A stretch of DNA of 47,801 nt, taken from positions 62,976 to 110,776 of the forward strand of contig NZ_EQ973647.1 of the NCBI RefSeq assembly GCF_000157915.1. The letters run 5' to 3'. This DNA is from Phocaeicola coprophilus DSM 18228 = JCM 13818 (GTDB lineage Bacteria > Bacteroidota > Bacteroidia > Bacteroidales > Bacteroidaceae). Below, in pieces: positions 1 to 35,352 of this stretch. Within the stretch, counting starts at the first letter, position 1; each line of letters begins with the position of its first letter. The notes under the pieces are model-generated. The model did no database searches and was not told the origin of the DNA. It saw nothing but the letters and a program-made list of their open reading frames with translations. The translations under genes were made by a program, and so were the position numbers.

Positions 1-35
1 GAAGAAAGTTGTTATTATAAAATTTAATATTTTCT

Positions 36-66
36 ATTGTTTATTTGAATTTTTTCTATAGCTTTG
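36..66 (+). promoter_or_regulatory. Candidate Bacteroides-type promoter for susC-like gene
   Basis: A perfect TAnnTTTG -7 element (TAGCTTTG) lies at 59-66. An ATTG at 36-39, 19 bases upstream, is a plausible partial match to the -33 TTTG box. The leader to the ATG at 123 is A/T-rich with no strong Shine-Dalgarno, which is normal for this phylum. The call rests on consensus matching only. Confidence 0.5.
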
Positions 67-122
67 TGGTAACCTTTATTTAGATAACTATTAATCATTG
101 TTATTAATATAATTTTAATATT

Positions 123-3100
123 ATGAAACTAAGAAATGTAAATTACCGAGGCAGACTGGCAATTTTGACGGGTGCATTCTGTTGTACATCCTTGCCAATG
201 GCTGCACTTCCGACTTCTGTTGAAGCCGCCTCTCCCAATGAGATTACCCAGCAGACGATGAAGGTAAAAGGTTTGGTTCTGGACGCATCGACTGGTGAAC
301 CTGTGATTGGTGCCAATGTCATTGTGAAGGGAACGACTAATGGGGTGATTACAGACCTGGATGGTGTGTATGAACTGAATGCACCGGCAGGTGCTGTCCT
401 GCAGATTTCATTTGTCGGCTATAAGACCATTGAAGTGAAGGCTGAACCCAACATGAAGGTAAACCTGAAGGAAGACACCGAAACGCTGGATGAAGTTGTA
501 GTTGTCGGTTACGGTACTCAGCGCCGTGAAAGTCTGACCGGTTCTTTACAGACAGTCAAGGAAAATAAACTGAAGGATGTTACTACGGCCAATGTGGAAA
601 ACATGTTGAACGGTAAAGTTTCCGGAGTTTTCGTTGCTCCGGGTTCCGGTCAGCCGGGTTCAAGCGGTGCCGTGATGGTTCGTGGTAAGGCATCTATCAA
701 CGGTAGTTCATCTCCGTTGTGGGTAATCGACGGTGTAATTGTCGGTGATGGAGCCGGACAATTGAATCCTGCCGATATCGAAACCATGACCATCCTGAAA
801 GATGCTGCATCTACAGCTATTTATGGTTCTCAGGGAGCCAACGGTGTTATCCTGGTAACAACCAAGAGCGGCAAGAGCGGTAAGATGACTATCAATGTAT
901 CAGCCAAGGCCGGTGTCAGCAGATTGAATAATGGAAATCTGGAAATGATGGACGGTGCTGAATTGTATGATTACTATAAGTCATTCAGCAATGCTGACCA
1001 GATCAATTTTCCACGCTGGAATGAAGACTTGCGCAATGCCAATTTTGACTGGTGGGATCTGGCGACTCAAAGCGGCGTGACTCAGGAATATAATGTCTCT
1101 CTTTCCGGAGGCGGTGAAAAAATCAATTCTTATTTCTCTATGGGTTACTATGACGAAGAAGGTGCAGTGAAAGGATATGATCTGCAGCGTTACAACTTCC
1201 GTTATCGTACCAATTACAAACCTTTCTCCTGGTTGACCATCAAACCGTCTGTTGCCGGTGCAATGCGTAATACGCATGATGCCCAGTATTCTGTAACAGC
1301 CATGTACTCTATGTTCCCGTGGGACAGTCCGTATGATGAAAACGGCAATCTGGTTCCCGACCGTTACAGCGGATGGGTGAACAGCCAGTCAACCAACTAC
1401 TTGAACGACCTGAGCTATGGTAACCATACAGACTACAAGACCTATGAGTTCAGTGGAAACTTTGATTTTGATATCCGGATTACGGACTGGCTGACTTTTA
1501 ACTCTGTCAATAATTTCCGCTGGACCGGTTATTACTATAATTCTTATTCTGATCCCCGATGCGAGGGAGCTTCCGGTGTAAACGGACGTTTGGAGGAATA
1601 TCAGAGCAATACCGTACGCCGTTATACCAACCAGATTCTGCGTTTCAACAAAATGTGGGATAAACATTCATTGAATGCCTTGCTGGCGTATGAATTCAAT
1701 GACTATCAGGGCAAGGCTATTTCAGCTACCGGTACCGGTTTTGTACCCGGATTTGAGGTACTTGATGTTACAGCGATTCCTGAAGATGTAGGCGGAAGCC
1801 TGAGCGAATGGGCTATGCAGTCTTATCTCTTCAAGGCAATTTATTCTTATGACAACCGTTATCTGGGTGAAGTTTCTTTCCGTCGGGATGGTGCTTCCAA
1901 TTTCGGTGATGAAAACAAATATGGTAACTTCTTCTCTGTCAGTGCCGGATGGAATATCAACCGTGAAAAATGGTTCAAGGCTGATTGGGTGAACAACCTG
2001 AAATTACGTGCTTCCTATGGTACGGTAGGTAACCGTCCAAGTTCACTTTATCCGCAGTATGACCTTTATTCTATCTCTGCAAAGTATAACGGAACTTCCG
2101 CTGCTTTGATCAGTCAGATCGGTAACAAGGAACTTACCTGGGAAAAGACTTATACGACGGGTGTCGGTTTAGATGCATCTATGTTCCATGAACGTTTCCG
2201 CTTCTCATTCGATTATTACTACAAGTATACTTCCAACATTCTGTTTGCTGTACCTGTATCCGGTCTTACCGGTGTAACTTCCCGCTGGAAGAATGTGGGT
2301 GAAATGGAAAACCAGGGTATTGAACTGACTGTCGGTGGCGATATCATCCGTACCAGAGACTGGAACTGGAGTGTGGAAATGAACCTGGGACATAACAGAA
2401 ACCGTATCAAGGAACTGTATGGAAACAATACGGAAATCATTCGTAGCGGTGGTATCGGTATCGCCGGTGAAGCCGACAAGATTCTGAAAAAAGACTATGA
2501 CAGCGACAGCTTCTACATGGTAGAATGGGCAGGTGTCAATCCTGAAACGGGAGCTCCGCAATGGTACAAGCATACCAAAGATGAAAATGGAAATATCACC
2601 GGACGTGAAATCACTGAAAATTATGCAGAAGCAGATCAGGTGATCTGTGATGCTTCCACTCCGAAACTGTTTGGTGGATTCAATACAACTCTTGCATGGA
2701 AAAACATTGATCTGACAGCTGTATTCGGTTACTCCATCGGTGGCAAGATCTATAACTATTCTCGTCAGGAATACGATTCTGATGGTGCCTATACAGACCG
2801 TAACCAGATGAAACTGATGGACGGATGGACCCGTTGGGAAAAGCCGGGTGACATTGCTACGCATCCTGTTGCTTCCTACAATAACTCATCCAACTCCAAT
2901 AAAGCTTCTACCCGTTATCTGGAAGATGGTGACTATCTGAAGCTGCGTTCACTGACTATCGGTTACAACCTGAAGTTGCCGAAATACTACATTCAGAATA
3001 TGCGTATCTTCTTTACCGGTGAAAACCTGTTCTGCGTAACCGGATATTCCGGTGTGGATCCTGAAATTCCGGCCAGTGGAGGTTCTGTAATCGGTTCTAC

Positions 3101-3161
3101 CGGTCCGAGTGTTTATCCCTCTACCCGCAAGTACATGTTTGGTATTAACTTAACCTTTTAA
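123..3161 (+). CDS. SusC/RagA-family TonB-dependent outer-membrane transporter
   Basis: This is the outer-membrane beta-barrel that imports a glycan or glycoside with energy from TonB. The 1012-residue protein starts with a Sec signal ending near an Ala-rich stretch at residues 30-36. A carboxypeptidase-regulatory-like beta-sandwich follows at about 47-115, then a TonB-box-like DEVVVVGYG segment near 122-130, the plug domain (about 135-260) and a barrel that ends in an aromatic residue, Phe. It lacks an STN domain, so it is not the type that signals to an anti-sigma factor. That fits control by the AraC regulator found nearby. The gene is 13 bases upstream of its SusD partner and surely co-transcribed with it. 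The substrate cannot be read from the sequence. The downstream GH2 and methyltransferases suggest a methylated glycoside, which is inference. Confidence 0.95.
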   Translation: MKLRNVNYRGRLAILTGAFCCTSLPMAALPTSVEAASPNEITQQTMKVKGLVLDASTGEPVIGANVIVKGTTNGVITDLDGVYELNAPAGAVLQISFVGYKTIEVKAEPNMKVNLKEDTETLDEVVVVGYGTQRRESLTGSLQTVKENKLKDVTTANVENMLNGKVSGVFVAPGSGQPGSSGAVMVRGKASINGSSSPLWVIDGVIVGDGAGQLNPADIETMTILKDAASTAIYGSQGANGVILVTTKSGKSGKMTINVSAKAGVSRLNNGNLEMMDGAELYDYYKSFSNADQINFPRWNEDLRNANFDWWDLATQSGVTQEYNVSLSGGGEKINSYFSMGYYDEEGAVKGYDLQRYNFRYRTNYKPFSWLTIKPSVAGAMRNTHDAQYSVTAMYSMFPWDSPYDENGNLVPDRYSGWVNSQSTNYLNDLSYGNHTDYKTYEFSGNFDFDIRITDWLTFNSVNNFRWTGYYYNSYSDPRCEGASGVNGRLEEYQSNTVRRYTNQILRFNKMWDKHSLNALLAYEFNDYQGKAISATGTGFVPGFEVLDVTAIPEDVGGSLSEWAMQSYLFKAIYSYDNRYLGEVSFRRDGASNFGDENKYGNFFSVSAGWNINREKWFKADWVNNLKLRASYGTVGNRPSSLYPQYDLYSISAKYNGTSAALISQIGNKELTWEKTYTTGVGLDASMFHERFRFSFDYYYKYTSNILFAVPVSGLTGVTSRWKNVGEMENQGIELTVGGDIIRTRDWNWSVEMNLGHNRNRIKELYGNNTEIIRSGGIGIAGEADKILKKDYDSDSFYMVEWAGVNPETGAPQWYKHTKDENGNITGREITENYAEADQVICDASTPKLFGGFNTTLAWKNIDLTAVFGYSIGGKIYNYSRQEYDSDGAYTDRNQMKLMDGWTRWEKPGDIATHPVASYNNSSNSNKASTRYLEDGDYLKLRSLTIGYNLKLPKYYIQNMRIFFTGENLFCVTGYSGVDPEIPASGGSVIGSTGPSVYPSTRKYMFGINLTF

Positions 3162-3174
3162 TTAGCTGATTCGT

Positions 3175-4953
3175 ATGAAAAAGATTATATCAACCTCTTT
3201 GTTGGTGACCGCCTGTCTGTGCGGAACATTGACATCATGTGACATTGAACGCCTGCCCAAAGGCAGCATGTCTGCAGAACAGATTACGAATGATCCTTTG
3301 GCTTCCCTGGACGGTCTGGTGGATGGTGCTTATGCCCAGTTGAAAGACTGGTCAGATCCGATGCACCGTCTCGGCGAATATGCTGGTGATAATATGATGA
3401 TCCGTGGTGCATCTACCGATGCATTTTATGAATTCATAACCTTCTCCCGTACTCCGAACAACTACCGTCTTCAGAACTTCTGGGATTATGGCTATAAGGC
3501 CATTGCCCAGGCTTCAAATATCATCAAGATGATTGAAGAAGGACAGGATCCGGAAATTGACAGTAAGCTGGGTGAATGTTATTACATCCGTGGTATGATG
3601 TACTTCTACCTGTGCCGTGCGTTCGGCCGTCCGTATTATCAGGCTCCTGACAAGAATCTGGGTGTGCCTATCGTCAATGGTACTCCGGATGATATGGACA
3701 ATCTTCAGTTGCCCGACCGTTCGACTGTGAAGGAAGTTTATGAACAGGCCATCAGTGACCTGAAGAAGGCAGAAGCCATGATTACAGAGAACAAGGGACC
3801 GGCATACGCATCCAAGGAAGCTGCACAGGCCATGCTTTCCAGAGTTTACCTGTATATGAGTGGAACTTACAGCAATCCGAATGCGGAATATGCCCAGCTG
3901 GCCGTTGATTATGCCACTAAGGTGATTGAATCCGGTCAGTATGAACTGTTGGGACACGATGAATTCATGACTTATAATACGATTGTTCCTGAAAATAATA
4001 AGGAATCCATTTTCGTAGTGAAGCGTGTGGCTTCCGAGTTCTCCGGATATGACCATTATTACGGTATCGGCGGTATGTATGGTGTTGTCGGAGGTATGGG
4101 TTGGGGCGAAATGTATGCCAGTGCCAAGTATCTCGACCTGCTGAATGAGACAGGACGTAACGACTGGCGTCCGGACAGCAAAAAGATTGTAGATGCACGT
4201 GCCAACTTCATTGCTCCGCAGTATGTACAGGATGATAACGGAAATTATACGAATGTGTTCCGTTTCATCAAGAATGTATATGATACCAGTGGCAATGTGA
4301 TCAACTTCAACTACGTGCAGGCTAAGCTGAACCAGAACGGAGGCAATTATACTTGTACAGAAACCATTGACGGTGTGGACAAGACTTATGCGATGACTCC
4401 GGTGGATGCTTCCCAACAGATCTATTCCATCCAGTATTCCGACGGACAGACCTATACTGGTGTCATTGATTATCAGATGTCATTGAACCGTGTATATCCG
4501 ATGTTCTACATTACGAAGTGTTCTTACGAAGGTGAAGAATCTCACCTGCATTCACCGATTATTTCCCGATTGGGTGAGATTTACCTGAACCGTGCTGAAG
4601 CATATGCCAAACTGGGTAATTACGGTGCTGCCCTGACTGACCTGAATACCATTCGTGAACGCTCTATTCCGGGTGCCGGATATGCTTCTCTGGATGCTAA
4701 TAATGCTCCTGAACTTATCGACAAGGAACGTCAGCTTGAATTGGCTTATCAGGCAGAGCGAAGCTATGACGTATTCCGTAACGGTGAACCGTTGACCCGT
4801 CATTATCCGGGTCCGCACAATGCAATGGAAGATGTTCCGGCTACGGATTATCGTGTAACTTATTACATTCCGCAAAGTGCGATCAATGCATATCCGAGCG
4901 GATGTACGCTGACACAGAATCCGACCAGCGATGCAGGTGTGATTCTGAATTAA
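3175..4953 (+). CDS. SusD/RagB-family glycan-binding lipoprotein
   Basis: This is the surface lipoprotein that caps the SusC-like barrel and binds the substrate before import. It has 592 residues, with a lipoprotein signal peptide whose lipobox ends at Cys22 (LTSC). The body is the alpha-helical TPR-like SusD fold: the N-terminal helical part contains the usual YYIRGMMYFYLCRAFG region near 137-152, and the C-terminal RagB/SusD domain contains the conserved LGEIYLNRAEAYAKLG segment near 463-478. Length is typical for the family. It follows the susC-like gene by 13 bases, and an intrinsic terminator lies just after its stop, so the two form a closed unit. Confidence 0.95.
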   Translation: MKKIISTSLLVTACLCGTLTSCDIERLPKGSMSAEQITNDPLASLDGLVDGAYAQLKDWSDPMHRLGEYAGDNMMIRGASTDAFYEFITFSRTPNNYRLQNFWDYGYKAIAQASNIIKMIEEGQDPEIDSKLGECYYIRGMMYFYLCRAFGRPYYQAPDKNLGVPIVNGTPDDMDNLQLPDRSTVKEVYEQAISDLKKAEAMITENKGPAYASKEAAQAMLSRVYLYMSGTYSNPNAEYAQLAVDYATKVIESGQYELLGHDEFMTYNTIVPENNKESIFVVKRVASEFSGYDHYYGIGGMYGVVGGMGWGEMYASAKYLDLLNETGRNDWRPDSKKIVDARANFIAPQYVQDDNGNYTNVFRFIKNVYDTSGNVINFNYVQAKLNQNGGNYTCTETIDGVDKTYAMTPVDASQQIYSIQYSDGQTYTGVIDYQMSLNRVYPMFYITKCSYEGEESHLHSPIISRLGEIYLNRAEAYAKLGNYGAALTDLNTIRERSIPGAGYASLDANNAPELIDKERQLELAYQAERSYDVFRNGEPLTRHYPGPHNAMEDVPATDYRVTYYIPQSAINAYPSGCTLTQNPTSDAGVILN

Positions 4954-4988
4954 CAGGCTTTTCTGGATAAATAATAAAGTTTGTCTTG

Positions 4989-5041
4989 AGAGGGATTACA
5001 GAGAACCGGCTGTGAAGCCGTGACTGTAATCCCTCTTTTTT
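4989..5041 (+). terminator. Intrinsic terminator of the susCD-like pair
   Basis: A 13-bp perfect stem pairs AGAGGGATTACAG (4989-5001) with CTGTAATCCCTCT (5024-5036), and a run of T residues follows to 5041. The loop can form a second small stem (CCGGC...GCCG). The left arm is not preceded by an A-tract, so it should act only for + strand transcription. Confidence 0.9.
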
Positions 5042-5058
5042 ATGGAACAAGGCATAGT

Positions 5059-5208
5059 CAATCGACTGCACGATGTCCTCGCAATTGACTGGTCAATGCA
5101 AAAGCAACGACCGCACGATTGCCCTCAAACGACTGCACGATTGGACCGCAACGACCGCACGTTTGGGCTTCAACGACCGCACGATTCAGCTGCAACGGGC
5201 ATTACAGT
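5059..5208. repeat. 22-bp-period direct repeat array
   Basis: Four clear copies of a CAACGACCGCACGATT-like core start at 5105, 5127, 5149 and 5171, exactly 22 bases apart, with variable 5-6 base linkers. A further good core match (CGACTGCACGAT) lies at 5063-5074. Degenerate periods at 5083 and 5193 also fall in register. The array lies between the susD terminator and the 3' end of the araC gene, so it would be in the 3' untranslated part of the araC transcript. A palindrome ATTGACTGGTCAAT sits at 5084-5097. Function is unknown; the two-helical-turn spacing would suit a protein-binding array. Confidence 0.75.
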
Positions 5209-6080
5209 TTTTGAGCGTATTCACTGGGGGTATAGCCGGTTACCTGCTTGAACTGATGATTGAAATGGGAGAGACTGTTGTAGCCGCAGTCGTATGCCAC
5301 CTGGCTGATATTGATGTTTTTGTTGATCAGCAGTTTGGTTGCGTATGAGATTCTCAGTTCCGTGAGGTATTCAAACATTCTTTTCCCGGTATGTTTTTTA
5401 TAGTATCTGCAAAGTGCACTTGGATTCATACCGACATTACAGGCAATGTCTTCCAGGGCGATATTGTTCTGGTAGTTCTTGTTGATAAACAGATGCACCT
5501 TGTTGATAATCGGATCTTCTGTCGAATCACTGTTGATATAGTTCTCTGTTGTCAGGGTTGCATGATTGCATTCGGAACTTAGCCTGTAGAGTAAAGTATA
5601 AAGTCCTTCGATCTTTTCAAATCCTTCTTTGGTAACCAGGGAGCGGAACAGTTCTTTTAAAGCCTCAATGCTGCCGCCGGTAAAGAAGACCCCTTTCTGA
5701 GATTTCTTCAGGAGGGAATAAATATTCTCCAGTTCGGGAATGTCGTGTAAGCTGGCGGGAAAGATCCGGTCATCAAACTGGGTATAGACAGACCGTGAAA
5801 CCAGTCCGGAGTTCTGGTAGTATTCGTCTGCGCTGAGCCACAGATGGGGGAGATTCTTTCCGATCAGCATGAAGTCGCCCGGAGAAAGCTCCTGGATGGA
5901 ATCGCCTACGAAGCTGAGTCCTTTGCCTTCCTCTATCAGAATCAGTTCATATTCCGGATGGATATGTAAAGGTGCGGCAAAGTAGGGATTCGTGTACGAA
6001 ACCACAGAAAATGAAGTTCCTTTTCTCTTCTCTACTTTTTCGAAGGTAGCTTCCATCTGATGTAAGGAGTTTGTTTTCAT
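5202..6080 (-). CDS. AraC/XylS-family transcriptional regulator with N-terminal cupin
   Basis: This is a one-component regulator likely to control the neighbouring susCD pair and the divergent methyltransferase/GH2 operon. The 292-residue protein has an N-terminal cupin-like sensor domain (about 20-100, with the HIHPEYELILIEEGKG strand pattern) and a C-terminal double helix-turn-helix domain (about 190-292). The DNA-binding part shows the typical IALEDIACNVGMNPSALCRYYK first helix-turn-helix and the AYDCGYNSLSHFNHQFKQ-type second one. It is divergent from the 6183 gene with a 102-base shared promoter region. The sensor ligand is unknown; a sugar or other product of the pathway is the simplest guess. 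Confidence 0.92.
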   Translation of the reverse strand: MKTNSLHQMEATFEKVEKRKGTSFSVVSYTNPYFAAPLHIHPEYELILIEEGKGLSFVGDSIQELSPGDFMLIGKNLPHLWLSADEYYQNSGLVSRSVYTQFDDRIFPASLHDIPELENIYSLLKKSQKGVFFTGGSIEALKELFRSLVTKEGFEKIEGLYTLLYRLSSECNHATLTTENYINSDSTEDPIINKVHLFINKNYQNNIALEDIACNVGMNPSALCRYYKKHTGKRMFEYLTELRISYATKLLINKNINISQVAYDCGYNSLSHFNHQFKQVTGYTPSEYAQKL

Positions 6081-6114
6081 CTTTTTGTTCAGGCAAATAA
6101 ATCACACAACCATG

Positions 6115-6146
6115 CAAATATACTATAAAACGATTTAAAAAGCAAC
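6115..6146 (-). promoter_or_regulatory. Candidate promoter of the araC-type gene
   Basis: Read on the minus strand, TATATTTG (6122 down to 6115) is a perfect TAnnTTTG -7 box. GTTG at 6146-6143, 20 bases upstream, resembles the -33 TTTG element. The box lies 35 bases before the araC start codon. Confidence 0.45.
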
Positions 6147-6149
6147 GTG

Positions 6150-6157
6150 TAAATTTG
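6150..6157 (+). promoter_or_regulatory. Candidate -7 box for the methyltransferase/GH2 operon
   Basis: TAAATTTG matches the TAnnTTTG element and sits 26 bases before the ATG at 6183. No TTTG-like -33 box is present at the right distance, which would suit a promoter that needs an activator such as the divergent AraC protein. The activator dependence is inference. Confidence 0.4.
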
Positions 6158-6182
6158 TCAGCAGTAAAAAACTAATACGATT

Positions 6183-7262
6183 ATGAAACATAGAGAACGG
6201 GTTATCAGAGCTTTAAATCATGAAGAAACGGACAGGCCTCCTTTTCAGGCCACATTTACTCCGGAATTTGCAGATCGTTTACGCGAAGTCTTTCATCTTC
6301 CCAGACAGTTTTCGGAACCACACCACAGAGACTGGTACGGATATGAGCTGGAGAAGCTGACAGGACAGGATTTGCTTCAGGCCAGTGTCGGATGGTCTGC
6401 CAACTATTACTTGAAGCAGGAGCCTTACACGGACGAATGGGGTGTCAAATGGAAGATTGATCCTTATGAAACTCCGTTTGGCATCGGACATTATACGAAC
6501 ATTGCCCGGAATCCTCTGCGTGATAATGATGAACTGGCAATGGCTTATAAGGCACCCGATCCACACCGGCCGGAGCTTTATAAGAATGTGGAGCGTCTGG
6601 TGAAGGAATATGGCGATGAATATTATATTATCGGGCGTATTCACTGTACCATCTTTGAGTCTGCATGGGCTTTGAGAGGACTTGATACGCTGATGACCGA
6701 TTTTTATATCAATCCGGATCTGACCAATCACCTGCTGGATGAGACCGGAGGCTTCCATAAGGAAGTGGCTAAGAAGATGGCACAGATAGGCGTTGACATG
6801 ATCTGGCTGGGTGATGACATGGGAGCACAGGATTCACTGATGATTGATCCGGAACTGTGGCGCGAGTTCTTCAAGGGCAGAATGGCCGATATCATCCGCA
6901 CGGTGAAAGAAATTAAGCCGGATATCAAGGTGGCTTATCATACGGACGGCTGTAATTACGACATTATTCCCGATCTGATCGAAATCGGTCTGGATGTATT
7001 GAATCCTATCCAGACGGAATGTATGAATCCGGAGATCCTGCAGGAAAAATATGGAGATCAGCTTTGCTTCTTCGGGGGAGTGGCGGTTCAGTCAACCTTG
7101 CCCATGGGAACTCCTGAACAGATAGAAAAGGAATATGCATGGCTGAAAAACTCTGTAGGAAAGGGAGGAGGATGGATTTGTGCTCCGACTCACCATGTGC
7201 AGCTGGATACTCCGATGGAGAATTTCTTCCATTTGCTGAAAACTGTAGGAACCATCGGTTAA
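6183..7262 (+). CDS. UroD-family (corrinoid-type) methyltransferase, probable substrate-side component
   Basis: The 359-residue protein has the uroporphyrinogen-decarboxylase TIM-barrel fold, which includes methyltransferases of the MtaA/MtbA/CmuA type. It opens with the family's RERVIRALNHEETDRPP segment (residues 4-20). Potential metal ligands are His253 and Cys257 in YHTDGC and Cys333 in WICAP. The spacing H-x3-C differs from the H-x-C of MtaA. A true HemE role is unlikely, because the gene sits first in an operon with a corrinoid protein, a second UroD-family enzyme, a symporter and GH2, with no haem genes around. I infer that it moves a methyl group between the imported substrate and the corrinoid protein at 12311. 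Which of the two UroD-family enzymes acts on the substrate is a guess based on divergence from MtaA. Confidence 0.8.
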   Translation: MKHRERVIRALNHEETDRPPFQATFTPEFADRLREVFHLPRQFSEPHHRDWYGYELEKLTGQDLLQASVGWSANYYLKQEPYTDEWGVKWKIDPYETPFGIGHYTNIARNPLRDNDELAMAYKAPDPHRPELYKNVERLVKEYGDEYYIIGRIHCTIFESAWALRGLDTLMTDFYINPDLTNHLLDETGGFHKEVAKKMAQIGVDMIWLGDDMGAQDSLMIDPELWREFFKGRMADIIRTVKEIKPDIKVAYHTDGCNYDIIPDLIEIGLDVLNPIQTECMNPEILQEKYGDQLCFFGGVAVQSTLPMGTPEQIEKEYAWLKNSVGKGGGWICAPTHHVQLDTPMENFFHLLKTVGTIG

Positions 7263-7336
7263 TGCAAAGACAGATTCAGACAAGAGCGGGAAACTGCCGT
7301 AAAAAGGATTGGTTATACTGAAAAAGCATTCTGTAT

Positions 7337-10300
7337 ATGAGATTGAAAAAGATACTGTTGTTGGGAGGTCTGTTAAGTCTGACCCTGACTTCCTGGTCGC
7401 AAGACAAGAAATGGGTGGAAGTAGCTTATGACGACTGTGGCGAGAAAGGAAAACAGCCTCATCTGGTTTTGGGGGAAAATTATGAAATGCCGGCTGAACT
7501 GTCGGGCAGCACGGCCCAGCGTTCCTGCAATTTCGGCGGGAAGGTGATCTATGCATTCGATAAGATGGATATTCATGCCGACTATCGGATGGAAGTGACT
7601 TTTCTGGCCGACAGTGAACGGATCATAGAAATTGTCGCCGATGGAAATCCAGTCTGTGAGTCTATCCATCTTCCGGCGGGAGAGGTAGTAAAGAAAACAA
7701 TCGATTTGCCCCGTCACTCGTTTGCCTACGGTCAGTTCGTGATGGTGGTGAATCCCGTCAAGGGACCTAATGCCATTATTTCCGGGATCCGGATTTTATC
7801 TTCCGATCCGGGACAGCTGGCTGCCGTGTCTGAAGAGTCACGCGAGGCATTGAAGTCGGTTCAGGCTTATGTCGTAGACACTCAGGTGGATGCGGAACAG
7901 GTGTTGCCGACCTATGTCCCGATACCGGCTTCCGTGAAGGATGTCTACCGGAATCAGCTTTCCCTCAATGGGGAGTGGCTGTTCTCAGAACAGGCGGAAG
8001 GAGAAGACTGGCATCGCATTATGGTACCGGGAGAGTGGTGCATGCAGGGCTTTAAGGTGGATTCAGCCGCATTTGCCCGTTATCAGAAAAACTTTGAAGT
8101 GCCGCAGGACTGGAAAGGCAAGCAGGTCATCCTTCGTTTTGACGGAGTTCATAGTGAATATAAAGTGTTTGTCAACCACCGTCAGGTGGGTTCCCATCTG
8201 GGAGGAATGACACCGTATGAAGTCAACATTACGGATGCCTTGCAGGATGGAACGAATATCCTGTCTCTTCAGGTGCGGAGTGAATCGCTGGCCGATATGC
8301 TGGGAAGCCTTACCCAATATGCCGCTCATCAGCTGGGAGGTATCACCCGTAAGGTTACCCTGTTCGCTGTTCCTGACATTCATCTCTCGGATCTGCGTAT
8401 TCAGACAGACCTGGACGAGAACTATCGGGATGCACGTCTGAAACTTTATGTAGCGGTCAGAAATGATTCCGACCGTCCGTCCCGGAAAGTATCTTTGAAG
8501 GCCGTTTTGGACAAGCATGAGGCATCCGGTTCCCTGAACTTGCCGGAAATCGCTCCGGGAGAAACCTGGAAGGGATGGCTGGAGATGGACGTGAAGTCAC
8601 CTTTGCTGTGGGACAATGAGCATCCCAACCTGTACCGGCTTCATCTGGATTTGTATGAAGGAGAAAATTCCATAGCACAGATTGAGAAAAAATTCGGCTT
8701 CCGTGAAGTGGAAGTACGGGGAAACCGTCTGCTGGTCAACGGCCGTCCTGTCAAGTTGAGAGGAGTCTGCCGTCATGAGGCTCATCCTCTTTACGGACGT
8801 TCTCTGACCGATGAGGAATGGAAGGCCGATGCAGAACTGTATCGGGCTGCCAACTGTAACTTCATCCGAACCTCTCATTATCCTCCGGCAGAAGAGTTCA
8901 TTGAATATTGCGATGAACTGGGGCTGTTTGTCGAACTGGAAGCACCTGTATGCTGGATCGGTCATCATGCCAATGAGAACTGGCAGAAGCTGAATTATAA
9001 GGATGAAAAATATTATGACTATGTTCTGCAGGCTGATATGGAAACTGTACATTTCTACCGGAACCATCCTTCAGTCATTTTCTGGTCGATGGCCAACGAA
9101 TCCTACTGGAACAAAGGATTTGCACAGGTTGCCGAATACATGAAGAAAGCGGATACGACCCGTCCGTTTGCTTTCCATGATCAGGCCTATGGCGGTTTCA
9201 ACAATCAGGGCAGTACGGCTCCGATAGCCAATATTCATTATCCCGGACCGGGAGGATATCAGGAAGCGGCCAAAAGTGACCGTCCGATGACGTACGGAGA
9301 ATACTGTCATCTGAACGTCTATAACCGCAGTGAACTGGTGACTGATCCCGGTATCCGCAGTGACTGGGCCCTGGCACTGGCTCCGATGTGGGAGAACATG
9401 TATGCAACAGATGGTGTTCTCGGCGGTTCAATCTGGTCGGGTATTGATGACATTTTCCAGTTGCCGGACGGAAATGCAGTGGGATACGGTGCCTGGGGAC
9501 CTGTGGACGGATGGCGCCGTCCGAAGCCTGAGTACTGGGACATGAAAAAGATCTATAGTCCGGTCAGGTTACATACCGAAGCCCTGGAACCCGCCCGGAA
9601 ACTGGTGATTGATGTGGAAAACCGCTATACTTATACGAACCTGAACGAGCTGAAGATCCGTTGGACTTACGGAAAGGAAAGCGGAATGTCTGTACTTGAT
9701 GTAGCCCCTCAGGGCCGTGGACAACTGGTGGTAGAGGTCAGTGATCCTTCTGCTTCCAATCAGCTGAGCCTGGAATTTGTCGACCCCAGAGGATTTGTGG
9801 CCGATGAGTATCTGATTCCGGTGGGTGAGCAGAAGCAGAATCAGGTGGAAGCACCTGCCAGACAACGTACGAAGGTGAAACAGGATAAATCCCGTATTCG
9901 CATATACGGAAAGAACTTCACCTGTCTGGTAGACCGTTCTACCGGAATGATCCTTTCCGTGGAGAAAGACAACAGACAGATACTTTCCGGAGGTCCGTGG
10001 CTGATGGCGCTACCTCTGACAGGCGGAGGATGCTATCCGAACCATAATGCCGAGACTCCGGTATTCAATGATTTGTGCAAAGGATGGAAAGTAACCGGTG
10101 TGGAAGTTTCGGAAGAAGGACAGGACGTCCGTCTGAAAGTCAGCGGATCGTATGACGGTTTCGACGGACAGTATGAAATGATATGCAATGCGAACGGAGA
10201 GATCCGGGTTGATTATCAGTTTACGGTTCGTACGGCTGTCAATCCGAGACAATGGGGAATGGTCTTTGAGACCCCTGCCGGATTTGAAGAAACCTTCTGG

Positions 10301-10711
10301 CGCAGAAAGGGACTCTGGAGCGTCTATCCGGCAGATCATATCAGCCGTCCGTCCGGTACGGCAAAGAGCTTTTATCCGGAAGTACCTGCCGTACAGAATC
10401 CCCGTATCAAACCGGCCTGGGCATGGAGCAAGGACTTCAACCAGCTGGGAAGCAACGATTTCCGTTCTACCCGTAGAAACATCTGGTATGCAGGATTGCA
10501 GGATGTGGAAGGACAGTCCCGGGTAACGGTTGTTTCTGACGGCCGGCAGCACTGGCGTTCCTGGAAAGAAGGAGAGAAGACCTGCTTCCTGGTGGCAGAC
10601 TTTGTGACAGCAGGCGACGAAATGTTTTTAGGCAGCCATTATGCGCCTTACCGGAAACCGCTTAAGGTGGGAGACGTGATCAGTGGCAGCATTATTTTGC
10701 GTGTAAGATAA
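7337..10711 (+). CDS. Secreted glycoside hydrolase family 2 (beta-galactosidase/beta-glucuronidase-like)
   Basis: The 1124-residue protein begins with a signal peptide (MRLKKILLLGG... to about residue 21), so it acts in the periplasm or on the surface. After an extra N-terminal beta-rich, carbohydrate-binding-like region (about 25-160) come the GH2 sugar-binding domain (about 200-345), the Ig-like domain (about 345-450) and the catalytic TIM barrel (about 455-770). The acid/base Glu588 is in the SMANES motif and the nucleophile Glu655 is in MTYGEY, so the active site looks intact. The C-terminal part (about 860-1124) resembles the small-chain beta-galactosidase domain. The gene follows 6183-7262 by 74 bases and is nearly fused to the symporter (9-base gap). 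It probably removes a beta-linked galactosyl, glucuronyl or similar unit; the exact sugar cannot be assigned. Confidence 0.9.
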   Translation: MRLKKILLLGGLLSLTLTSWSQDKKWVEVAYDDCGEKGKQPHLVLGENYEMPAELSGSTAQRSCNFGGKVIYAFDKMDIHADYRMEVTFLADSERIIEIVADGNPVCESIHLPAGEVVKKTIDLPRHSFAYGQFVMVVNPVKGPNAIISGIRILSSDPGQLAAVSEESREALKSVQAYVVDTQVDAEQVLPTYVPIPASVKDVYRNQLSLNGEWLFSEQAEGEDWHRIMVPGEWCMQGFKVDSAAFARYQKNFEVPQDWKGKQVILRFDGVHSEYKVFVNHRQVGSHLGGMTPYEVNITDALQDGTNILSLQVRSESLADMLGSLTQYAAHQLGGITRKVTLFAVPDIHLSDLRIQTDLDENYRDARLKLYVAVRNDSDRPSRKVSLKAVLDKHEASGSLNLPEIAPGETWKGWLEMDVKSPLLWDNEHPNLYRLHLDLYEGENSIAQIEKKFGFREVEVRGNRLLVNGRPVKLRGVCRHEAHPLYGRSLTDEEWKADAELYRAANCNFIRTSHYPPAEEFIEYCDELGLFVELEAPVCWIGHHANENWQKLNYKDEKYYDYVLQADMETVHFYRNHPSVIFWSMANESYWNKGFAQVAEYMKKADTTRPFAFHDQAYGGFNNQGSTAPIANIHYPGPGGYQEAAKSDRPMTYGEYCHLNVYNRSELVTDPGIRSDWALALAPMWENMYATDGVLGGSIWSGIDDIFQLPDGNAVGYGAWGPVDGWRRPKPEYWDMKKIYSPVRLHTEALEPARKLVIDVENRYTYTNLNELKIRWTYGKESGMSVLDVAPQGRGQLVVEVSDPSASNQLSLEFVDPRGFVADEYLIPVGEQKQNQVEAPARQRTKVKQDKSRIRIYGKNFTCLVDRSTGMILSVEKDNRQILSGGPWLMALPLTGGGCYPNHNAETPVFNDLCKGWKVTGVEVSEEGQDVRLKVSGSYDGFDGQYEMICNANGEIRVDYQFTVRTAVNPRQWGMVFETPAGFEETFWRRKGLWSVYPADHISRPSGTAKSFYPEVPAVQNPRIKPAWAWSKDFNQLGSNDFRSTRRNIWYAGLQDVEGQSRVTVVSDGRQHWRSWKEGEKTCFLVADFVTAGDEMFLGSHYAPYRKPLKVGDVISGSIILRVR

Positions 10712-10720
10712 GAGCAGATT

Positions 10721-12292
10721 ATGAACACATTCTCCGTTTTAGACAGTGTCATCTTCATTGTTTATGTACTCCTGATCGTGGTAATAGGCCTTTGGTGTTC
10801 CCGTACCCGTAAAGGAGGCGTAAAAGACTCGAAGGAATATTTCCTGGCAGGGAATACATTGCCCTGGTGGGCGATCGGAGCTTCCGTCATAGCGTCCAAT
10901 ATATCGGCAGAGCAGTTTATCGGCATGTCCGGATCCGGCTTTGCCATCGGACTGGGAATCGCTTCCTATGAGTTTGTAGCTGCCGCTTCCCTGATTGTGG
11001 TTGCCGTATTTTTTCTGCCTATCTTCCTGAAGACGAAAATTTATACGATGCCTCAGTTTCTGGAAATCCGTTATGGAAAACCAGTCAAGACTCTCATGGC
11101 ATTCTTCTGGCTGCTGGTTTTTATTTTTGTCAATCTGACCTCCATCCTTTATCTGGGAGCCCTGGCCATTCATAAAGTGGTCGACATACCGGTCGGATTC
11201 AGTATTGTCTGTCTGGCTGTCTTTGCCGGAGCCTATGCCATCTATGGAGGACTGAAAGCGGTGGCACTGACCGACATGGTACAGGTGATCTTCCTGATCG
11301 GGGGCGGTCTGCTGACTACCTACATAGCCCTGAATCACTATTCGGAAGATGCCGGTGCTATAGCCGGAATGCAGAAACTGATAGCGCAGGTTCCGGAAAA
11401 GTTTGACATGATCCTTGATCCCTCCAATCCGGATTATAAATATTTGCCGGGAATCGGGGTCATTCTGGGCGGACTGTGGGTCAGTGCCTTGTATTATTTC
11501 GGATGCAATCAGTACATTATCCAGCGTGCTCTGGCAGGCAAAAGTCTTTCGGAAGCCCGTATGGGACTCGTCTTTGCCGGTCTGCTGAAGCTGATTCTTC
11601 CCCTGATCGTCGTGATCCCCGGAATCGTAGCTTTTGCCCTGGATGCCCCTCTGGAGAAGCCCGATCAGGCCTATCCCTGGCTGATGCATAACTTTATCCC
11701 TTCGGGAGTGAAAGGAATTGCATTCGCAGCACTGGTGGCAGCCGTGGTCAGTTCGCTGGCCTCGATGGTAAACAGCATCACGACGATTTTCACGATGGAT
11801 ATCTACAAGGAATATTTTGCGGGAAAGGATGTGCCGGAGAAACGTCTGGTGAATGTCGGCCGCTGTTTCGGATTCTTCAGTCTGGTACTGGCCGTACTGA
11901 TCGCCCCTGCACTGGCCGGTCTGGAACAGGCCTTCCAGTTTATACAGGAGTTTACCGGTTTCATCAGTCCGGGAGCCCTGGCCATCTTTGTCATGGGATT
12001 CTTCTGGAAACGGGCAGAGATGAAAGGAGCCCTGGCTGCGGCTGCAGGAACCTTTGTCTTCTCGCTGGTACTTATGCTGTTTTTTCCGGAGATCTCCTTT
12101 ATTGACCGGATGGCCTATGTCTTTATCCTTTGCGTACTGCTGATCGTGGTGTTTGGACTGTTGTCCGGCAAGAAGACAGATGAAAGAGCAATTATTCTGG
12201 AGCCGGGACTGTTTGCCACCACCTGGACCTTCAAGCTCCTGAGCGGAGTGATCCTGGCTATTCTGGGTGTGATTTATTATGTATTTTGGTAA
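10721..12292 (+). CDS. Sodium/solute symporter (SSS/SGLT family)
   Basis: This inner-membrane cation-coupled importer has 523 residues and about 13-14 hydrophobic segments. The first begins at residue 7, and the characteristic GG-x-x-SKEYFLAGN-LPWW region is near 32-51. Other family marks are NISAEQFIGMSGSGFA (about 61-76) and the AIYGGLKAV stretch (about 174-182). Members carry sugars, sialic acid, proline or similar small solutes. It is 9 bases after GH2 and 18 bases before the corrinoid protein, so its cargo is probably the GH2 product, passed to the cytoplasmic methyltransferases. The exact solute is unknown. Confidence 0.92.
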   Translation: MNTFSVLDSVIFIVYVLLIVVIGLWCSRTRKGGVKDSKEYFLAGNTLPWWAIGASVIASNISAEQFIGMSGSGFAIGLGIASYEFVAAASLIVVAVFFLPIFLKTKIYTMPQFLEIRYGKPVKTLMAFFWLLVFIFVNLTSILYLGALAIHKVVDIPVGFSIVCLAVFAGAYAIYGGLKAVALTDMVQVIFLIGGGLLTTYIALNHYSEDAGAIAGMQKLIAQVPEKFDMILDPSNPDYKYLPGIGVILGGLWVSALYYFGCNQYIIQRALAGKSLSEARMGLVFAGLLKLILPLIVVIPGIVAFALDAPLEKPDQAYPWLMHNFIPSGVKGIAFAALVAAVVSSLASMVNSITTIFTMDIYKEYFAGKDVPEKRLVNVGRCFGFFSLVLAVLIAPALAGLEQAFQFIQEFTGFISPGALAIFVMGFFWKRAEMKGALAAAAGTFVFSLVLMLFFPEISFIDRMAYVFILCVLLIVVFGLLSGKKTDERAIILEPGLFATTWTFKLLSGVILAILGVIYYVFW

Positions 12293-12310
12293 TAATTAAA
12301 GTCTATAAAT

Positions 12311-12979
12311 ATGGAAGAGTTGTTAGAACGAATTGCAAAATGTGTGGAGTTGGGTAAGATTAACGAGAAAACCCCTTATCCCCCTGCCATGAAAGGACAG
12401 CCTGGAGCCGATGAGCTGACCTTGCAGGCACTGAATGAAGGAATTTCTCCGTCAGATATTCTTCAGAAAGGTCTGATTGTCGGAATGGAACGTATCGGAG
12501 TGAAATTCAAGGCCAATCAGGTGTTTGTTCCCCAGGTGCTGATGAGTGCCAAGGCAATGGGAACGGCGATGAATCATCTCAAGAAGTTCTTTAAGGACGG
12601 AAGCGTGCAGCGTAAGGGAACAGTCATCATCGGCACCGTGGAAGGAGACTTGCATGATATCGGCAAGAACCTGGTAGCCATGATGGTGGAAGGAAACGGA
12701 TACGAAGTGATTGATCTGGGAGTGGATGTAAAGGCTGAGAAATTTGAAGAAACCCTGGAACAGCATCCGGGAGCCTTTGTCTGCATGTCTGCCTTGCTGA
12801 CCACCACCATGATTCACATGGAAAAGATTAATCAGCTGCTCAAGGAAAAACATCCGGAAGTCAAGACATTTATCGGAGGAGCACCCGTGACAGCGGATTT
12901 TGCCAGACAGATCGGAGTCGACTATTATTCAGACGGTCCGCAGGATCTGGTGGAAACATTGAACAAGCTGAGTGCCTGA
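12311..12979 (+). CDS. Corrinoid (cobalamin-binding) protein of a methyltransferase system, MtaC/MtbC-like
   Basis: This is the methyl-carrying shuttle protein of a corrinoid-dependent methyltransferase set. The 222-residue protein has the helical cap domain (about 1-95) followed by a Rossmann-like B12-binding domain. The base-off/His-on cobalamin signature is complete: DLHDIG with His115 (113-118), Ser160-Ala-Leu162 and the Gly189-Gly190 turn. The N-terminal cap holds a short insertion rich in Pro and Gly (residues 17-34) that I do not know from typical members. The upstream symporter is 18 bases away and the downstream MtaA-like gene starts 31 bases after its stop, preceded by a strong Shine-Dalgarno. 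It needs cobalamin, which Bacteroidetes often import. Confidence 0.93.
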   Translation: MEELLERIAKCVELGKINEKTPYPPAMKGQPGADELTLQALNEGISPSDILQKGLIVGMERIGVKFKANQVFVPQVLMSAKAMGTAMNHLKKFFKDGSVQRKGTVIIGTVEGDLHDIGKNLVAMMVEGNGYEVIDLGVDVKAEKFEETLEQHPGAFVCMSALLTTTMIHMEKINQLLKEKHPEVKTFIGGAPVTADFARQIGVDYYSDGPQDLVETLNKLSA

Positions 12980-13010
12980 GAGGGGAAAAAGAGTAATAGG
13001 AGGACTTGTT

Positions 13011-14006
13011 ATGAATCAATGGATCAATGAAATATTTCAGAACAGCAAGCGTGTGGCTGTTCCTGTAATGACCCATCCCGGAATAGAACTGACGGGACAC
13101 CGGGTAATTGAAGCCGTGACAGACGGCCGTGTACATTACGAAGCCATCAAATACCTGGCCGATCATTATCCCTCTTTTGCCACTTCCACCATCATGGACC
13201 TGACGGTGGAAGCTGAGGCCTTCGGATGTCAGATAAACTTTCCGGAAGATGAAGTTCCCAGTGTGGTGGGCAGACTGGTCAGTGATGCAGACTCCGTGGC
13301 AGCCTTGCAGGTTCCCGATTTGCAGGCAGGACGGGTACCCGAATACCTGAAGGCTGTCCGGCTGGCAGTAGAACATATCACCGACCGTCCCGTACTGGCC
13401 GGATGCATCGGCCCTTTCTCACTGGCCGGACGTTTGTATGACATGTCAGAAATCATGGTTGCCATTTATACAGATCCGGAAGTGATTCTTCAGCTGCTGG
13501 ATAAATGTACGGCATTTATTCTCAAGTATTGTGCAGAACTGAAACGTCTGGGAGCTTCGGGAGTCTTCATCGCAGAACCGGCAGCCGGGCTGCTCTCCAA
13601 TGAAGACTGCATGGCATATTCCACCGTGTTTATCCGGCAGATCGTACAAACCTTGCAGGACGATGACTTTGCGGTAATCCTTCATAACTGCGGCGACACC
13701 GGACAGTGTACCCAGGCCATGGTGGAGAGCGGGGCGGCCGCACTGCATTTCGGGAACGCCATAGATATGGTGAGCGCCCTGCAGGAATGCCCTTCCAGTC
13801 TGTTGGTCATGGGAAACATAGATCCCGTCGGAATTATGAAACAGGCCTCTCCGGAGGTTGTCAGAAAAGAAACCCTGGCCTTGCTGGAGGCTACAGCTTC
13901 CTGCCGGAACTTTGTATTGTCCACAGGATGTGACGTACCTCCCCAGGTTTCGCAGGAGAATATTGCAGCCTTTTTCCAGGCACTGGATGAGTTTAACTCC
14001 CTGTAA
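13011..14006 (+). CDS. UroD-family methylcobamide methyltransferase, MtaA/MtbA-like
   Basis: This enzyme is the probable partner that takes the methyl group from the corrinoid protein to an acceptor. From the ATG at 13011 it has 331 residues. The zinc-site pattern of MtaA-like enzymes is complete: His225-x-Cys227 (LHNCG) and Cys307 (TGCDVPP). The start is decided by an AGGAGG at 12998-13003, seven bases upstream; an open frame beginning with GTG at 12972 is unlikely because it overlaps the corrinoid gene and adds a non-family N-terminus. Archaeal MtaA uses coenzyme M, which Bacteroides is not known to make, so the acceptor here is uncertain (a folate or homocysteine-like thiol are options). 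It ends seven bases from the convergent ABC gene. Confidence 0.85.
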   Translation: MNQWINEIFQNSKRVAVPVMTHPGIELTGHRVIEAVTDGRVHYEAIKYLADHYPSFATSTIMDLTVEAEAFGCQINFPEDEVPSVVGRLVSDADSVAALQVPDLQAGRVPEYLKAVRLAVEHITDRPVLAGCIGPFSLAGRLYDMSEIMVAIYTDPEVILQLLDKCTAFILKYCAELKRLGASGVFIAEPAAGLLSNEDCMAYSTVFIRQIVQTLQDDDFAVILHNCGDTGQCTQAMVESGAAALHFGNAIDMVSALQECPSSLLVMGNIDPVGIMKQASPEVVRKETLALLEATASCRNFVLSTGCDVPPQVSQENIAAFFQALDEFNSL

Positions 14007-17474: not shown

Positions 17475-19568
17475 TTACTCTTTTACACAACGAATAGCAC
17501 AGGCATCGCGACGGCTTGAACTAAAATCACAGATATTGATTTTGTTTTCTGCTCCCCATGGGGTTGAACCGTTCACTTCCGTATAAGAACCGATCGACAT
17601 ATAAGCCGAATAGGCATCGGTTGTTCCCCCAATATTATAAGGAGAAGCTGACCAATATCTGGATGAACCTCCTCTCATCAGTACAGATTCTTGTCCGGCA
17701 GACCACATTGTTCCCGTTGATCCGTATCGGCTGCCGGTCTGAGGGTAGAATGTTCCTTCGGTATCCGAGTCATTCTTTTTGAAATAGTAGCCATTGTCAT
17801 ACTTGACATAGTTAATGTAATCAAGTCTGCTTGTTGTTCCTGAAATTCCAGATGTATTGCCATCATTTCTTTTTACAAATCCTGTCCATGTATATTTGTT
17901 TGCCACACGGTATCCCACAGGAGAAGGATCATAGATGGTCTTCACATCCGTCCATCCGGAACATGCCATAGGATCTTCAAGATAGTCAGGATATTTTGGA
18001 GTAGTTCCGTTCGTATCTCCCCAAAGGTAATTGTTTGTTTCAGCCATCCAATTACCATGGAAGTTATCGATATATTTCTGTAATTCGGCCGGGTGCTTCA
18101 CACTTTCTGCTATTGTACCGGTCTGCGAAACATATACGGGGAAAGATGTTTCAACTTCTTCTGCTATTCCGTTCACATAATATGTTGAAGTATTTGGAAA
18201 CGGATCTTTTCGTCCCCATTGATACAGAGTAACATAAAGAGATGTTGGAGAATGAGCTCCCAAAGTACGATCCATTACAGTAAACTGGTCACCAATTTTG
18301 TTAGTATATATCTCATCGGCAGGCATTTCATCGCCTACGCCCCAGATATGCCAGCTCCAGAGGATATCACCAGTCTGGTTATCGCCACTATATACTGCAA
18401 TCACCGCATTACCGACATTCTTGTTCGCTGTGTAATAACAACGTCCATCACCACCAAGTCTGATAGAAGAAGCATCAATGAAACCATCCACATCCTGCCA
18501 CAGCAGCTTGGCTGATTTAGGACTGATATATGCCGATTCAGTATGGAATCCGGCTCCCGGAATAATACCTTTCTGACCATTTCCAATGACAGTAGCCAAA
18601 AAAGAATGTTCACCAGCAGAATTTATCATATAGCAGTTGGCAGTCTCTTCCTGAGCAGGTGCATCATCTATCACAGCTTGATTGTTTTCCAGCACAGTGG
18701 CATTCAACGGCATTACGTAATACTTGCCTGCCTCGAAGTCGCAGAGTGCATCTGTTGTGAAAGACACCTCATGCTTGTCGGTCAGGAAAGTGCAATGCCA
18801 TGTAGTACCCTTTTGTGCACCCGGAGCAGCAACAGCATAAGCAATTACTGTTTCCGAGAGTGAAGGCTGTTTTGAGAAAGTCAGATTCAGAGAAGTGCTC
18901 TGTGCGTCGGCCACACCTGCAAGACCTTTATCAAGATTGGTAAGGTCGTATGTGTAGCTTCCAGTCACAGGAGCTCCAGTCTCCAGTGTCACACGTTGAA
19001 GCTTCTCGTCCACAGACAAGCCATCTACATTTGTGAGACTGAACTCGAAACGCACCAGCGAAACCATCTGACGCATCTTCAACTGATAGTTTCCGCTACC
19101 AAGATTGGCAATAGCATCTGTGGCTTTCACATCATAAGCTGCTATAGAGTTTTCATCGGCATAAATCTGCTCTGTAGGTATTGAAACAGGAACAGCCTGC
19201 AGATTCGATACATTATCACTGAACGGATAGTAAGCATACTTGGGAGTATCACCAGCGGTCACACTACCTGAAAATGTGGTCTGAGCAGCAGGCGAAGAGT
19301 GATTGCCTGTAAATGCAGCATTCACTGTATTGTCACCAAACACACCCACTTGGTCACCGACCGACCATTCCATAAACAAAGCCCCGTTTTCGGCCATACC
19401 TCCCACTTGTGTGCGGGTAGAGTGCAATGCCGAAAAGCCGTCAAGTGTTCCGGTTATATTAATTTTCTCCTGCATGGAAGAAGAAGGTTCCTCCAGCTCT
19501 GTACAGGCTGCCATCAAACCGGTAAAAACGAGCAAACAGCCTATCAATCCGTTCTTCTTTTGTTTCAT
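17475..19568 (-). CDS. Fimbrillin-like lipoprotein with C-terminal FISUMP domain
   Basis: The 697-residue protein has a lipoprotein signal with lipobox Cys22 (LMAAC). The N-terminal half (about 35-300) resembles fimbrillin/Mfa-type pilus subunits: GTLDGF, a THR-TQV start and a YAYYPFSDNV segment. The C-terminal part (about 410-697) is of the Fibrobacter-succinogenes-major-paralogous (FISUMP) type, with TVMDRTLGA, the YQWGRKDPFP motif, GYRVANKYTW and a final YWSASPY...AIRCVKE pattern. It is likely a surface-exposed adhesin or minor fimbrial subunit. It follows the PI-PLC-like fimbrillin by 78 bases and precedes the ompA-like gene by 34. The ligand is unknown. Confidence 0.85.
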   Translation of the reverse strand: MKQKKNGLIGCLLVFTGLMAACTELEEPSSSMQEKINITGTLDGFSALHSTRTQVGGMAENGALFMEWSVGDQVGVFGDNTVNAAFTGNHSSPAAQTTFSGSVTAGDTPKYAYYPFSDNVSNLQAVPVSIPTEQIYADENSIAAYDVKATDAIANLGSGNYQLKMRQMVSLVRFEFSLTNVDGLSVDEKLQRVTLETGAPVTGSYTYDLTNLDKGLAGVADAQSTSLNLTFSKQPSLSETVIAYAVAAPGAQKGTTWHCTFLTDKHEVSFTTDALCDFEAGKYYVMPLNATVLENNQAVIDDAPAQEETANCYMINSAGEHSFLATVIGNGQKGIIPGAGFHTESAYISPKSAKLLWQDVDGFIDASSIRLGGDGRCYYTANKNVGNAVIAVYSGDNQTGDILWSWHIWGVGDEMPADEIYTNKIGDQFTVMDRTLGAHSPTSLYVTLYQWGRKDPFPNTSTYYVNGIAEEVETSFPVYVSQTGTIAESVKHPAELQKYIDNFHGNWMAETNNYLWGDTNGTTPKYPDYLEDPMACSGWTDVKTIYDPSPVGYRVANKYTWTGFVKRNDGNTSGISGTTSRLDYINYVKYDNGYYFKKNDSDTEGTFYPQTGSRYGSTGTMWSAGQESVLMRGGSSRYWSASPYNIGGTTDAYSAYMSIGSYTEVNGSTPWGAENKINICDFSSSRRDACAIRCVKE

Positions 19569-22064: not shown

Positions 22065-22081
22065 AATATCTCCTTTCTTCT

Positions 22082-22255
22082 TTATTGCCATTCATTTCCT
22101 GTAAAATCAAACTCTTCAGAAATAGTCTGATTACCAGCTGTTACTTCACTATTAGGATCTTTCTTATCTACAACCGAAGCAGACATAAATCCTTGTTCCA
22201 ACTCCACTTCCGCATGTTGGGTTTGTGGAGCTTCATACTTTTTTTGAGTTTTCAT
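22082..22255 (-). CDS. Small 57-residue protein, candidate peptide substrate or fimbrial accessory
   Basis: Reading the minus strand from the ATG at 22255 to the TAA at 22082 gives a 57-residue product that begins MKTQKKYEAPQ and ends FDFTGNEWQ. It has no signal peptide or membrane segment. The N-terminal third is basic then Glu-rich (AEVELEQGF), followed by a small-residue stretch (MSASVV) and an acidic C-terminus. Small Bacteroides proteins that open with K-x-Y-x-A/S-P and continue with Glu-rich segments are commonly seen beside fimbrillin genes, but I know of no assigned role. It lies 17 bases before the Shine-Dalgarno-preceded fimbrillin-PLC gene, so co-translation is likely. It could be a precursor for the PqqD-like set in the same operon; that is only a hypothesis. 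Confidence 0.7.
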   Translation of the reverse strand: MKTQKKYEAPQTQHAEVELEQGFMSASVVDKKDPNSEVTAGNQTISEEFDFTGNEWQ

Positions 22256-35317: not shown

Positions 35318-35352
35318 AAGTTTGAGTCAGCAAATTTATAAGTTTATAAATT

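Follow-up and report, generated by a model that had tools for sequence, protein, structure and literature searches.

The window, i.e. the whole stretch of DNA analysed, comprises 47,801 nt of Phocaeicola coprophilus DSM 18228 (positions 62976-110776 of NZ_EQ973647.1; source genome 4.04 Mb, 99.7% complete). Its first part carries eight genes, all with complete reading frames:

123..3161, + strand: SusC-type TonB-dependent outer-membrane transporter (TIGR04056, 866 bits)
3175..4953, + strand: SusD-type glycan-binding lipoprotein (PF14322 and PF07980)
5202..6080, - strand: AraC-family regulator (PF12833, PF02311), separated by a 102-bp gap from the divergent UroD1
6183..7262, + strand: UroD1, proposed O-methyl-sugar:corrinoid methyltransferase (MT1; PF01208 (URO-D), 95 bits)
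7337..10711, + strand: GH2b, LacZ-like glycoside hydrolase (GH2 domains; PF02836, 139 bits)
10721..12292, + strand: SSS, vSGLT-type Na+/sugar symporter (SSF, 209 bits)
12311..12979, + strand: CoP, corrinoid carrier protein of the MtgC/MtaC type (PF02310 and PF02607)
12972..14006, + strand: UroD2, MtaA-like methylcorrinoid:acceptor methyltransferase (MT2; URO-D, 192 bits)

Three further genes are located 2-7 kb before the window start, on the same strand as the window genes:

L028 12479-13135, window strand: MetH-activation-domain protein (PF02965, 26 bits, cut-off 25)
L028 13108-14652, window strand: RACo, corrinoid reductive activase (PF14574, 213 bits; 2Fe-2S domain)
L028 14671-17625, window strand: GH2a, second GH2 enzyme (signal peptide by eye)

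UroD1, GH2b, SSS and CoP are spaced by 74, 9 and 18 bp, and CoP and UroD2 overlap by 8 bp, so that a single operon or transcript is plausible as a prediction. The sequence-only reading, which had placed two UroD-family proteins, a secreted GH2 enzyme, an SSS symporter and a corrinoid protein beside a SusCD pair and an AraC regulator, was confirmed, and all of these genes are intact; the DxHxxG motif that it had reported for the corrinoid protein is read in CoP as DLHDIG. SusC and SusD adjoin a glycoside hydrolase and a regulator, the arrangement of a Sus-type polysaccharide utilisation locus. The five-gene module is present as noted, and the system extends further, with the activase, the activation-domain protein and GH2a outside the window.

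The remainder of the window is occupied in large part by a capsule/exopolysaccharide locus (22375-47719, - strand; GNVR/AAA, Poly_export, glycosyltransferases and a flippase-like protein). Its G+C content is 28-37% over positions 34001-44000, and that of positions 1-14000 is 44-51%. Within the capsule locus, a 440-aa protein (29654-30976, - strand) gave sigma-70 region-4-like/HTH matches at residues ~174-211, 250-278 and 324-358, as if it were built of tandem helix-turn-helix repeats. Two proteins of 697 and 814 aa (17475-19568 and 19647-22091, - strand), flanked by an OmpA-like protein on one side and by the genes for capsule export on the other, had no Pfam match at 0.001. Upstream of SusC, a readable piece at L028 ~18100-18800 resembles a DUF1016-type nuclease by eye.

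CoP contains both B12-binding domains and, in addition to DLHDIG, the letters SAL and GG, as is characteristic of a dedicated stand-alone corrinoid protein. Its best score was obtained with MtgC, the glycine-betaine corrinoid protein (NF047996, 187 bits, under cut-off), and it matched PDB 1y80 at E 3e-46. Genome-wide, one further B12-binding_2 match was found, a 916-aa frame that is taken as MetH; elsewhere the genome also encodes MetF and, at full length, a MetH activation protein. GH2b starts with what looks like a signal peptide (by eye), and its top matches were LacZ-type beta-galactosidase in NCBIfam (320 bits, cut-off 999) and beta-galactosidase 6s6z in the PDB, so GH2b is a probable secreted beta-galactosidase. 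Homologues of GH2b (37-45% identity) occur in 11 other loci with flanks devoid of UroD.

A search with PF14574 (corrinoid reductive activase domain) returned a single match in the genome at a threshold of E 0.001, namely RACo, on the same contig and upstream of the window; the locus is thus accompanied by an activase gene, as a corrinoid-dependent O-demethylase should be. RACo reached 325 bits against NCBIfam AcsV, under the AcsV cut-off. Candidate genes for MT1, corrinoid protein, MT2 and activase are all contained within ~21 kb. With RACo and the MetH-activation-domain gene upstream, the locus has candidates for all four O-demethylase classes, and the four-part gene set (MT1, corrinoid protein, MT2, activator) looks complete, with roles assigned from homology and context.

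UroD1 and UroD2 are the only two URO-D proteins in the whole genome at E 0.001, and hemE had no match there (at E 1e-80, 22 of 119 genomes of the order have one). Against TIGR01463 (MtaA/CmuA), UroD1 scored 61 bits, under the cut-off, and it gave no match to hemE (TIGR01464) at E 0.001. UroD2 reached 149 bits against PRK06252 (MtaA/MtbA; cut-off 244), 134 bits against TIGR01463 (cut-off 235) and 76 bits against hemE TIGR01464 (cut-off 303), with MtaA (4ay7) as its best PDB match. The RQAGR motif of HemE is missing in both proteins. The sequence-only reading had made its case depend on the two proteins not both grouping with HemE decarboxylases; in a 60-row tree, which contains no methanogen MtaA row, three separate supported groups were recovered (HemE 100/100, UroD2 98/89, UroD1 100/98). 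In the same tree, UroD2 joins HemE, apart from UroD1 (97/91), a node that carries a long-branch warning. HemE identity was rejected for both proteins on account of the separate clades, the lack of RQAGR and the missed hemE cut-off.

At the positions of the MtaA metal ligands, UroD2 reads H-N-C...G-C and keeps the H-x-C...C letters, which are the metal (zinc) ligands of MtaA and MtbA. UroD1 has H253-x-D255...H337-H338 instead. None of these four residues varies among the window protein and its 41 aligned relatives (49-84% identity); H-x-C and H were found at these positions in four proteins of 35-38% identity. An O/N ligand set of this kind, being harder, would suit the activation of an ether oxygen over that of a thiol. 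The structure model of UroD1 (pLDDT 95.7) has a fold that fits HemE and MtaA equally, and a search of the PDB with the UroD1 profile at E 0.01 yielded MtaA as the sole match.

Scanning genome contigs with the UroD1 profile gave 272 relatives, 80 of which were kept. Eight other loci (L072-L078, L080) encode UroD1 at 76-84% identity. The order UroD1, SSS, CoP, UroD2 is kept in seven of them, and an activation-domain gene, RACo and a divergent AraC gene were each found in 7/8; the exceptions are L073 (no SSS, CoP or UroD2 near UroD1), L078 (without AraC) and L080 (activation-domain and RACo genes absent from the fetched DNA). Orthologues of GH2b and GH2a are present in 4/8 and 3/8 loci, respectively. 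In two loci (L075, L076), GH2b has the same place as in the window, after UroD1 and before SSS; upstream, these two loci also encode a homologue of SusC (230 bits) and a protein that matches SusD weakly (29 bits). L072 differs in its neighbours, which comprise GH35, a sulfatase and a GH36-type protein (read on a contig shared with L053). Records of other genera show four or five of the genes in an unchanged order, which is more than chance. The co-occurrence check suggested by the sequence-only reading thus found the linkage conserved, so that neither of the two outcomes named there as refuting came about. Cassette-bearing records are titled Bacteroides, Parabacteroides, Alloprevotella, Muribaculaceae and Porphyromonadaceae. 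The cassette is rare: UroD1 was detected at E <=1e-30 in 4/399 genomes of the family including its own, one of them at just 35% identity. Two records with the core cassette have strain titles (not MAG), Parabacteroides faecalis AGMB00274 (L080) and Parabacteroides sp. An277 (L074), which makes the proposal directly testable.

SSS is a full-length homologue of the Na+/galactose symporter vSGLT (PDB 2xq2, E 3e-161). The galactose ligands of vSGLT, as given in the available part of PMC8037263, are Q69, E88, K294, N260 and Q428, and lists in other papers overlap with this one. The window symporter keeps four of these five (Q69, E88, K294, Q428), with A replacing N260, and has F at position 89 (vSGLT numbering), where 16/20 readable non-cassette vSGLT-like rows have W. 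Among eight distinct cassette symporters (window and seven others), position 260 is A in seven and S in one, and all have F at 89. A second clade lacking N260 (L071, L079) carries G there and adjoins a UroD1-like gene (L071) or UroD1 (L079). N260 was present in all 21 vSGLT-like rows above 340 bits from the relatives search, including L161 and L166 near a UroD1-like gene, and in 19/19 vSGLT-like rows above 340 bits without UroD in flanks of up to ~1.5 kb. It is retained in 3/13 distinct vSGLT-like rows adjoining UroD1 or a UroD1-like gene; the L085 symporter, beside a UroD1 of 62% identity, has it. Loss of N260 corresponds to two tree events only, both in UroD-linked lineages, and is not obligatory for linkage to UroD1. 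Below 340 bits, residue 260 is variable whether near UroD1 or away from it, with N (three rows), T, G and A among six SSS rows beside UroD1 and G, A or S in the eight that the relatives search contributed. Four homologues (L157-L160) belong to the same genus as the window; there, the N260 form is paired with a homologue of GH2a (612-650 bits), and UroD is absent within ~1.5 kb. This looks like the parent galactoside system that gained the methyl module.

Relatives of UroD1 at ~50% identity were found in records titled Chloroflexota, Spirochaetes, Planctomycetota, Acidobacteria or Aminicenantes, Verrucomicrobia and others, some MAG labels among which may be wrong. By record titles, the family extends to at least Bacteroidota, Chloroflexota, Spirochaetota, Planctomycetota, Verrucomicrobiota and Acidobacteriota or the related Aminicenantota. 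As judged from these titles and the alignment, the UroD1 family is a multi-phylum one, with invariant H-x-D...H-H in place of the MtaA-type letters.

Neighbours were counted as clusters within 7 kb of UroD1 in 79 loci, each cluster being named after one representative. Ribose-type ABC permeases (25/79) and ribose-type binding proteins (22/79) occur near UroD1, as do LacI (14/79), FGGY sugar kinase (12/79), Fucose_iso_C protein (7/79), class II aldolase or AraD (6/79), galactokinase (5/79) and L-arabinose isomerase (3/79). A second UroD was found in 17 loci and a divergent AraC relative in seven (cluster 11). UroD1 is part of a multi-gene same-strand run in 60/79 loci. A sugar transport, sugar catabolism or GH2 gene was detected by phmmer in 48 of these 60 runs vs 22 of 115 control runs (other runs in the same loci), a comparison that is descriptive, with too small a p-value, since related loci were counted and the sugar-gene queries came from among the neighbours of UroD1. 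By cluster label, 46/60 multi-gene runs include GH2, a symporter of sugar type or one of these sugar genes, and some of the other 14 carry other glycosidases. In Planctomycetota, GH2 genes lie 27 and 57 bp from UroD1; other glycosidases adjoining it are GH95 and GH29-type (L079), GH42 (L112), and melibiase, fucosidase and GH2 types (L083, on a contig shared with L057).

Further neighbours of UroD1 include DUF5703_N (L106), GH123_N (L128) and large proteins without a Pfam match at 1e-5 (L144, L148). One family (representative L090:11010-12203, and 12 other loci) lies within 7 kb of UroD1 in 13/79 loci; the representative had no match in Pfam at 1e-5 or NCBIfam at 1e-8 and by eye is a diverged UroD-like protein with HVDG. 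A 761-aa desaturase-Rieske-reductase fusion (L105:13368-15653, and four other loci) was found near UroD1; most of these loci are from Chloroflexota records, and in most of them CoP belongs to the run as well. The fusion may provide an oxidative alternative to the corrinoid route at these loci.

CoP is part of the UroD1 run in 16/79 loci. Its absence from the run in the other 63, together with metal-site letters unlike those of MtaA, would fit UroD1 being some other UroD-fold sugar enzyme, not a methyltransferase, that adjoins the methyl-transfer set by chance or common regulation. We regard this as unlikely: the UroD1-SSS-CoP-UroD2 order is maintained across genera, MtaA alone was matched by the UroD1 profile in the PDB, and CoP-sized frames are present elsewhere in 46 of 50 genomes drawn from these 63 loci, all of which carry UroD1 (three of the frames being short, with 104, 124 and 157 aa). 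The remaining four genomes had a 468-aa frame only (ambiguous; one genome), MetH-sized matches only (two) or no match (one).

If UroD1 is a methyltransferase, its substrate could still be other than a methylated aldose. Known corrinoid O-demethylases act on methoxyarenes and betaines, and the top score of CoP was to MtgC, under cut-off, so a non-sugar aglycone released by GH2 (methoxyphenol, flavonoid or betaine) might be demethylated. The vSGLT-like symporter with its four retained sugar ligands and the sugar kinases, isomerases and galactokinase accompanying UroD1 relatives speak against it, and we consider an aglycone improbable. Still less credence is given to an O-methyl inositol such as pinitol, derived from galactosides such as galactopinitols. 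SSS transporters do include inositol carriers, and two relatives have melibiase-family proteins, probably alpha-galactosidases, in the vicinity of UroD1; however, among the annotated neighbours (part of all neighbours) no inositol-pathway gene was recognised, and aldose genes were found instead (fucose and arabinose isomerase, galactokinase, class II aldolase). Of the "methylated sugar or aglycone" left open by the sequence-only reading, the sugar is thus favoured, on the grounds of the vSGLT-like symporter and the sugar-catabolic runs of UroD1 relatives, and the aglycone less so.

With moderate confidence, we therefore favour a Sus-type locus that would carry a corrinoid-dependent module by which methylated sugars are demethylated anaerobically. 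Weighing against this reading are the UroD1 fold, which matches HemE as well as MtaA, the joining of UroD2 with HemE in the tree, the loss of N260 in just two events, the presence of CoP in few UroD1 runs and the GH2b homologues with UroD-free flanks. What is observed are the genes with their families and linkage, the conservation of residues and the kinship of the transporter; from these, we infer its catalytic steps, substrate and methyl acceptor as follows. SusCD would take up an oligosaccharide, from which secreted GH2 enzymes, probably beta-galactosidases, would free an O-methyl sugar in the periplasm, most likely O-methyl galactose or a galactose-like sugar. The vSGLT-type Na+ symporter, with its altered sugar pocket, would bring this sugar into the cytoplasm, where UroD1 would transfer the ether methyl to Co(I) of CoP and free the sugar for ordinary catabolism. 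UroD2, with its MtaA-like metal site, would pass the methyl from CoP to tetrahydrofolate or a thiol, e.g. homocysteine; a thiol acceptor is known for MT2 of the MtaA kind. RACo and the MetH-activation-domain protein would re-reduce oxidised CoP. The substrate is probably galactose-like, in view of the LacZ-like GH2 enzymes, the vSGLT kinship, and the galactokinase and fucose-/arabinose-type genes in relatives. The order of events envisaged from the sequence, outer deglycosylation followed by cytoplasmic demethylation, fits these data, and the sequence-only interpretation is supported. More tentatively, with chances that we judge close to evenly balanced, UroD1 may found a family of enzymes that have an H-x-D...H-H metal site and take methyl groups from O-methyl sugars in a corrinoid-dependent way. 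This would represent a general anaerobic demethylation route for methylated sugars, the counterpart of the oxygen-dependent P450 route, for which some Bacteroidales would hold a portable cassette with a retuned galactose symporter.

Methylated sugars are found in algal, plant and microbial glycans. Porphyran contains 6-O-methyl-galactose, as stated in the available parts of PMC12316285 and PMC10033563. In that of the former (2025), the anaerobic demethylation of methylated galactose is described as not elucidated, with its mechanism to be discovered, and none of the titles and abstract starts listed in our literature search concerned such a corrinoid sugar-demethylation system. The locus provides a concrete candidate gene set for this process. 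If the proposal is true, the availability of B12 would be tied to the way in which anaerobes use glycans and metabolise methyl groups.

In marine bacteria, according to the available part of PMC10033563, a P450 monooxygenase demethylates 6-O-methyl-D-galactose oxidatively with release of formaldehyde. That system shares with the present locus the same kind of chemical goal and nearby GH2 genes, as far as this part of the source goes, whereas the route proposed here would be oxygen-free and keep the methyl on a carrier. SSS is homologous over its full length to the Na+/galactose symporter vSGLT of Vibrio and differs from it in having A for N at 260 and F at 89. UroD2 is nearest by sequence to the methanogen methylcobamide:CoM methyltransferases MtaA and MtbA, with H-x-C...C kept; CoM is presumably an unlikely methyl acceptor at this locus. 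UroD1 is a distant relative of MtaA and bacterial CmuA; unlike MtaA, MtbA and CmuA, it has H-x-D...H-H, and both UroD1 and UroD2 remain under the NCBIfam cut-offs. The known four-component O-demethylases of acetogens (MT I, corrinoid protein, MT II and activating enzyme) use methoxyarenes. UroD1, CoP, UroD2 and RACo would encode the same roles, but, unlike in acetogens, the protein on the substrate side is here of the UroD family and is accompanied by SusCD, GH2 and a symporter for sugars.
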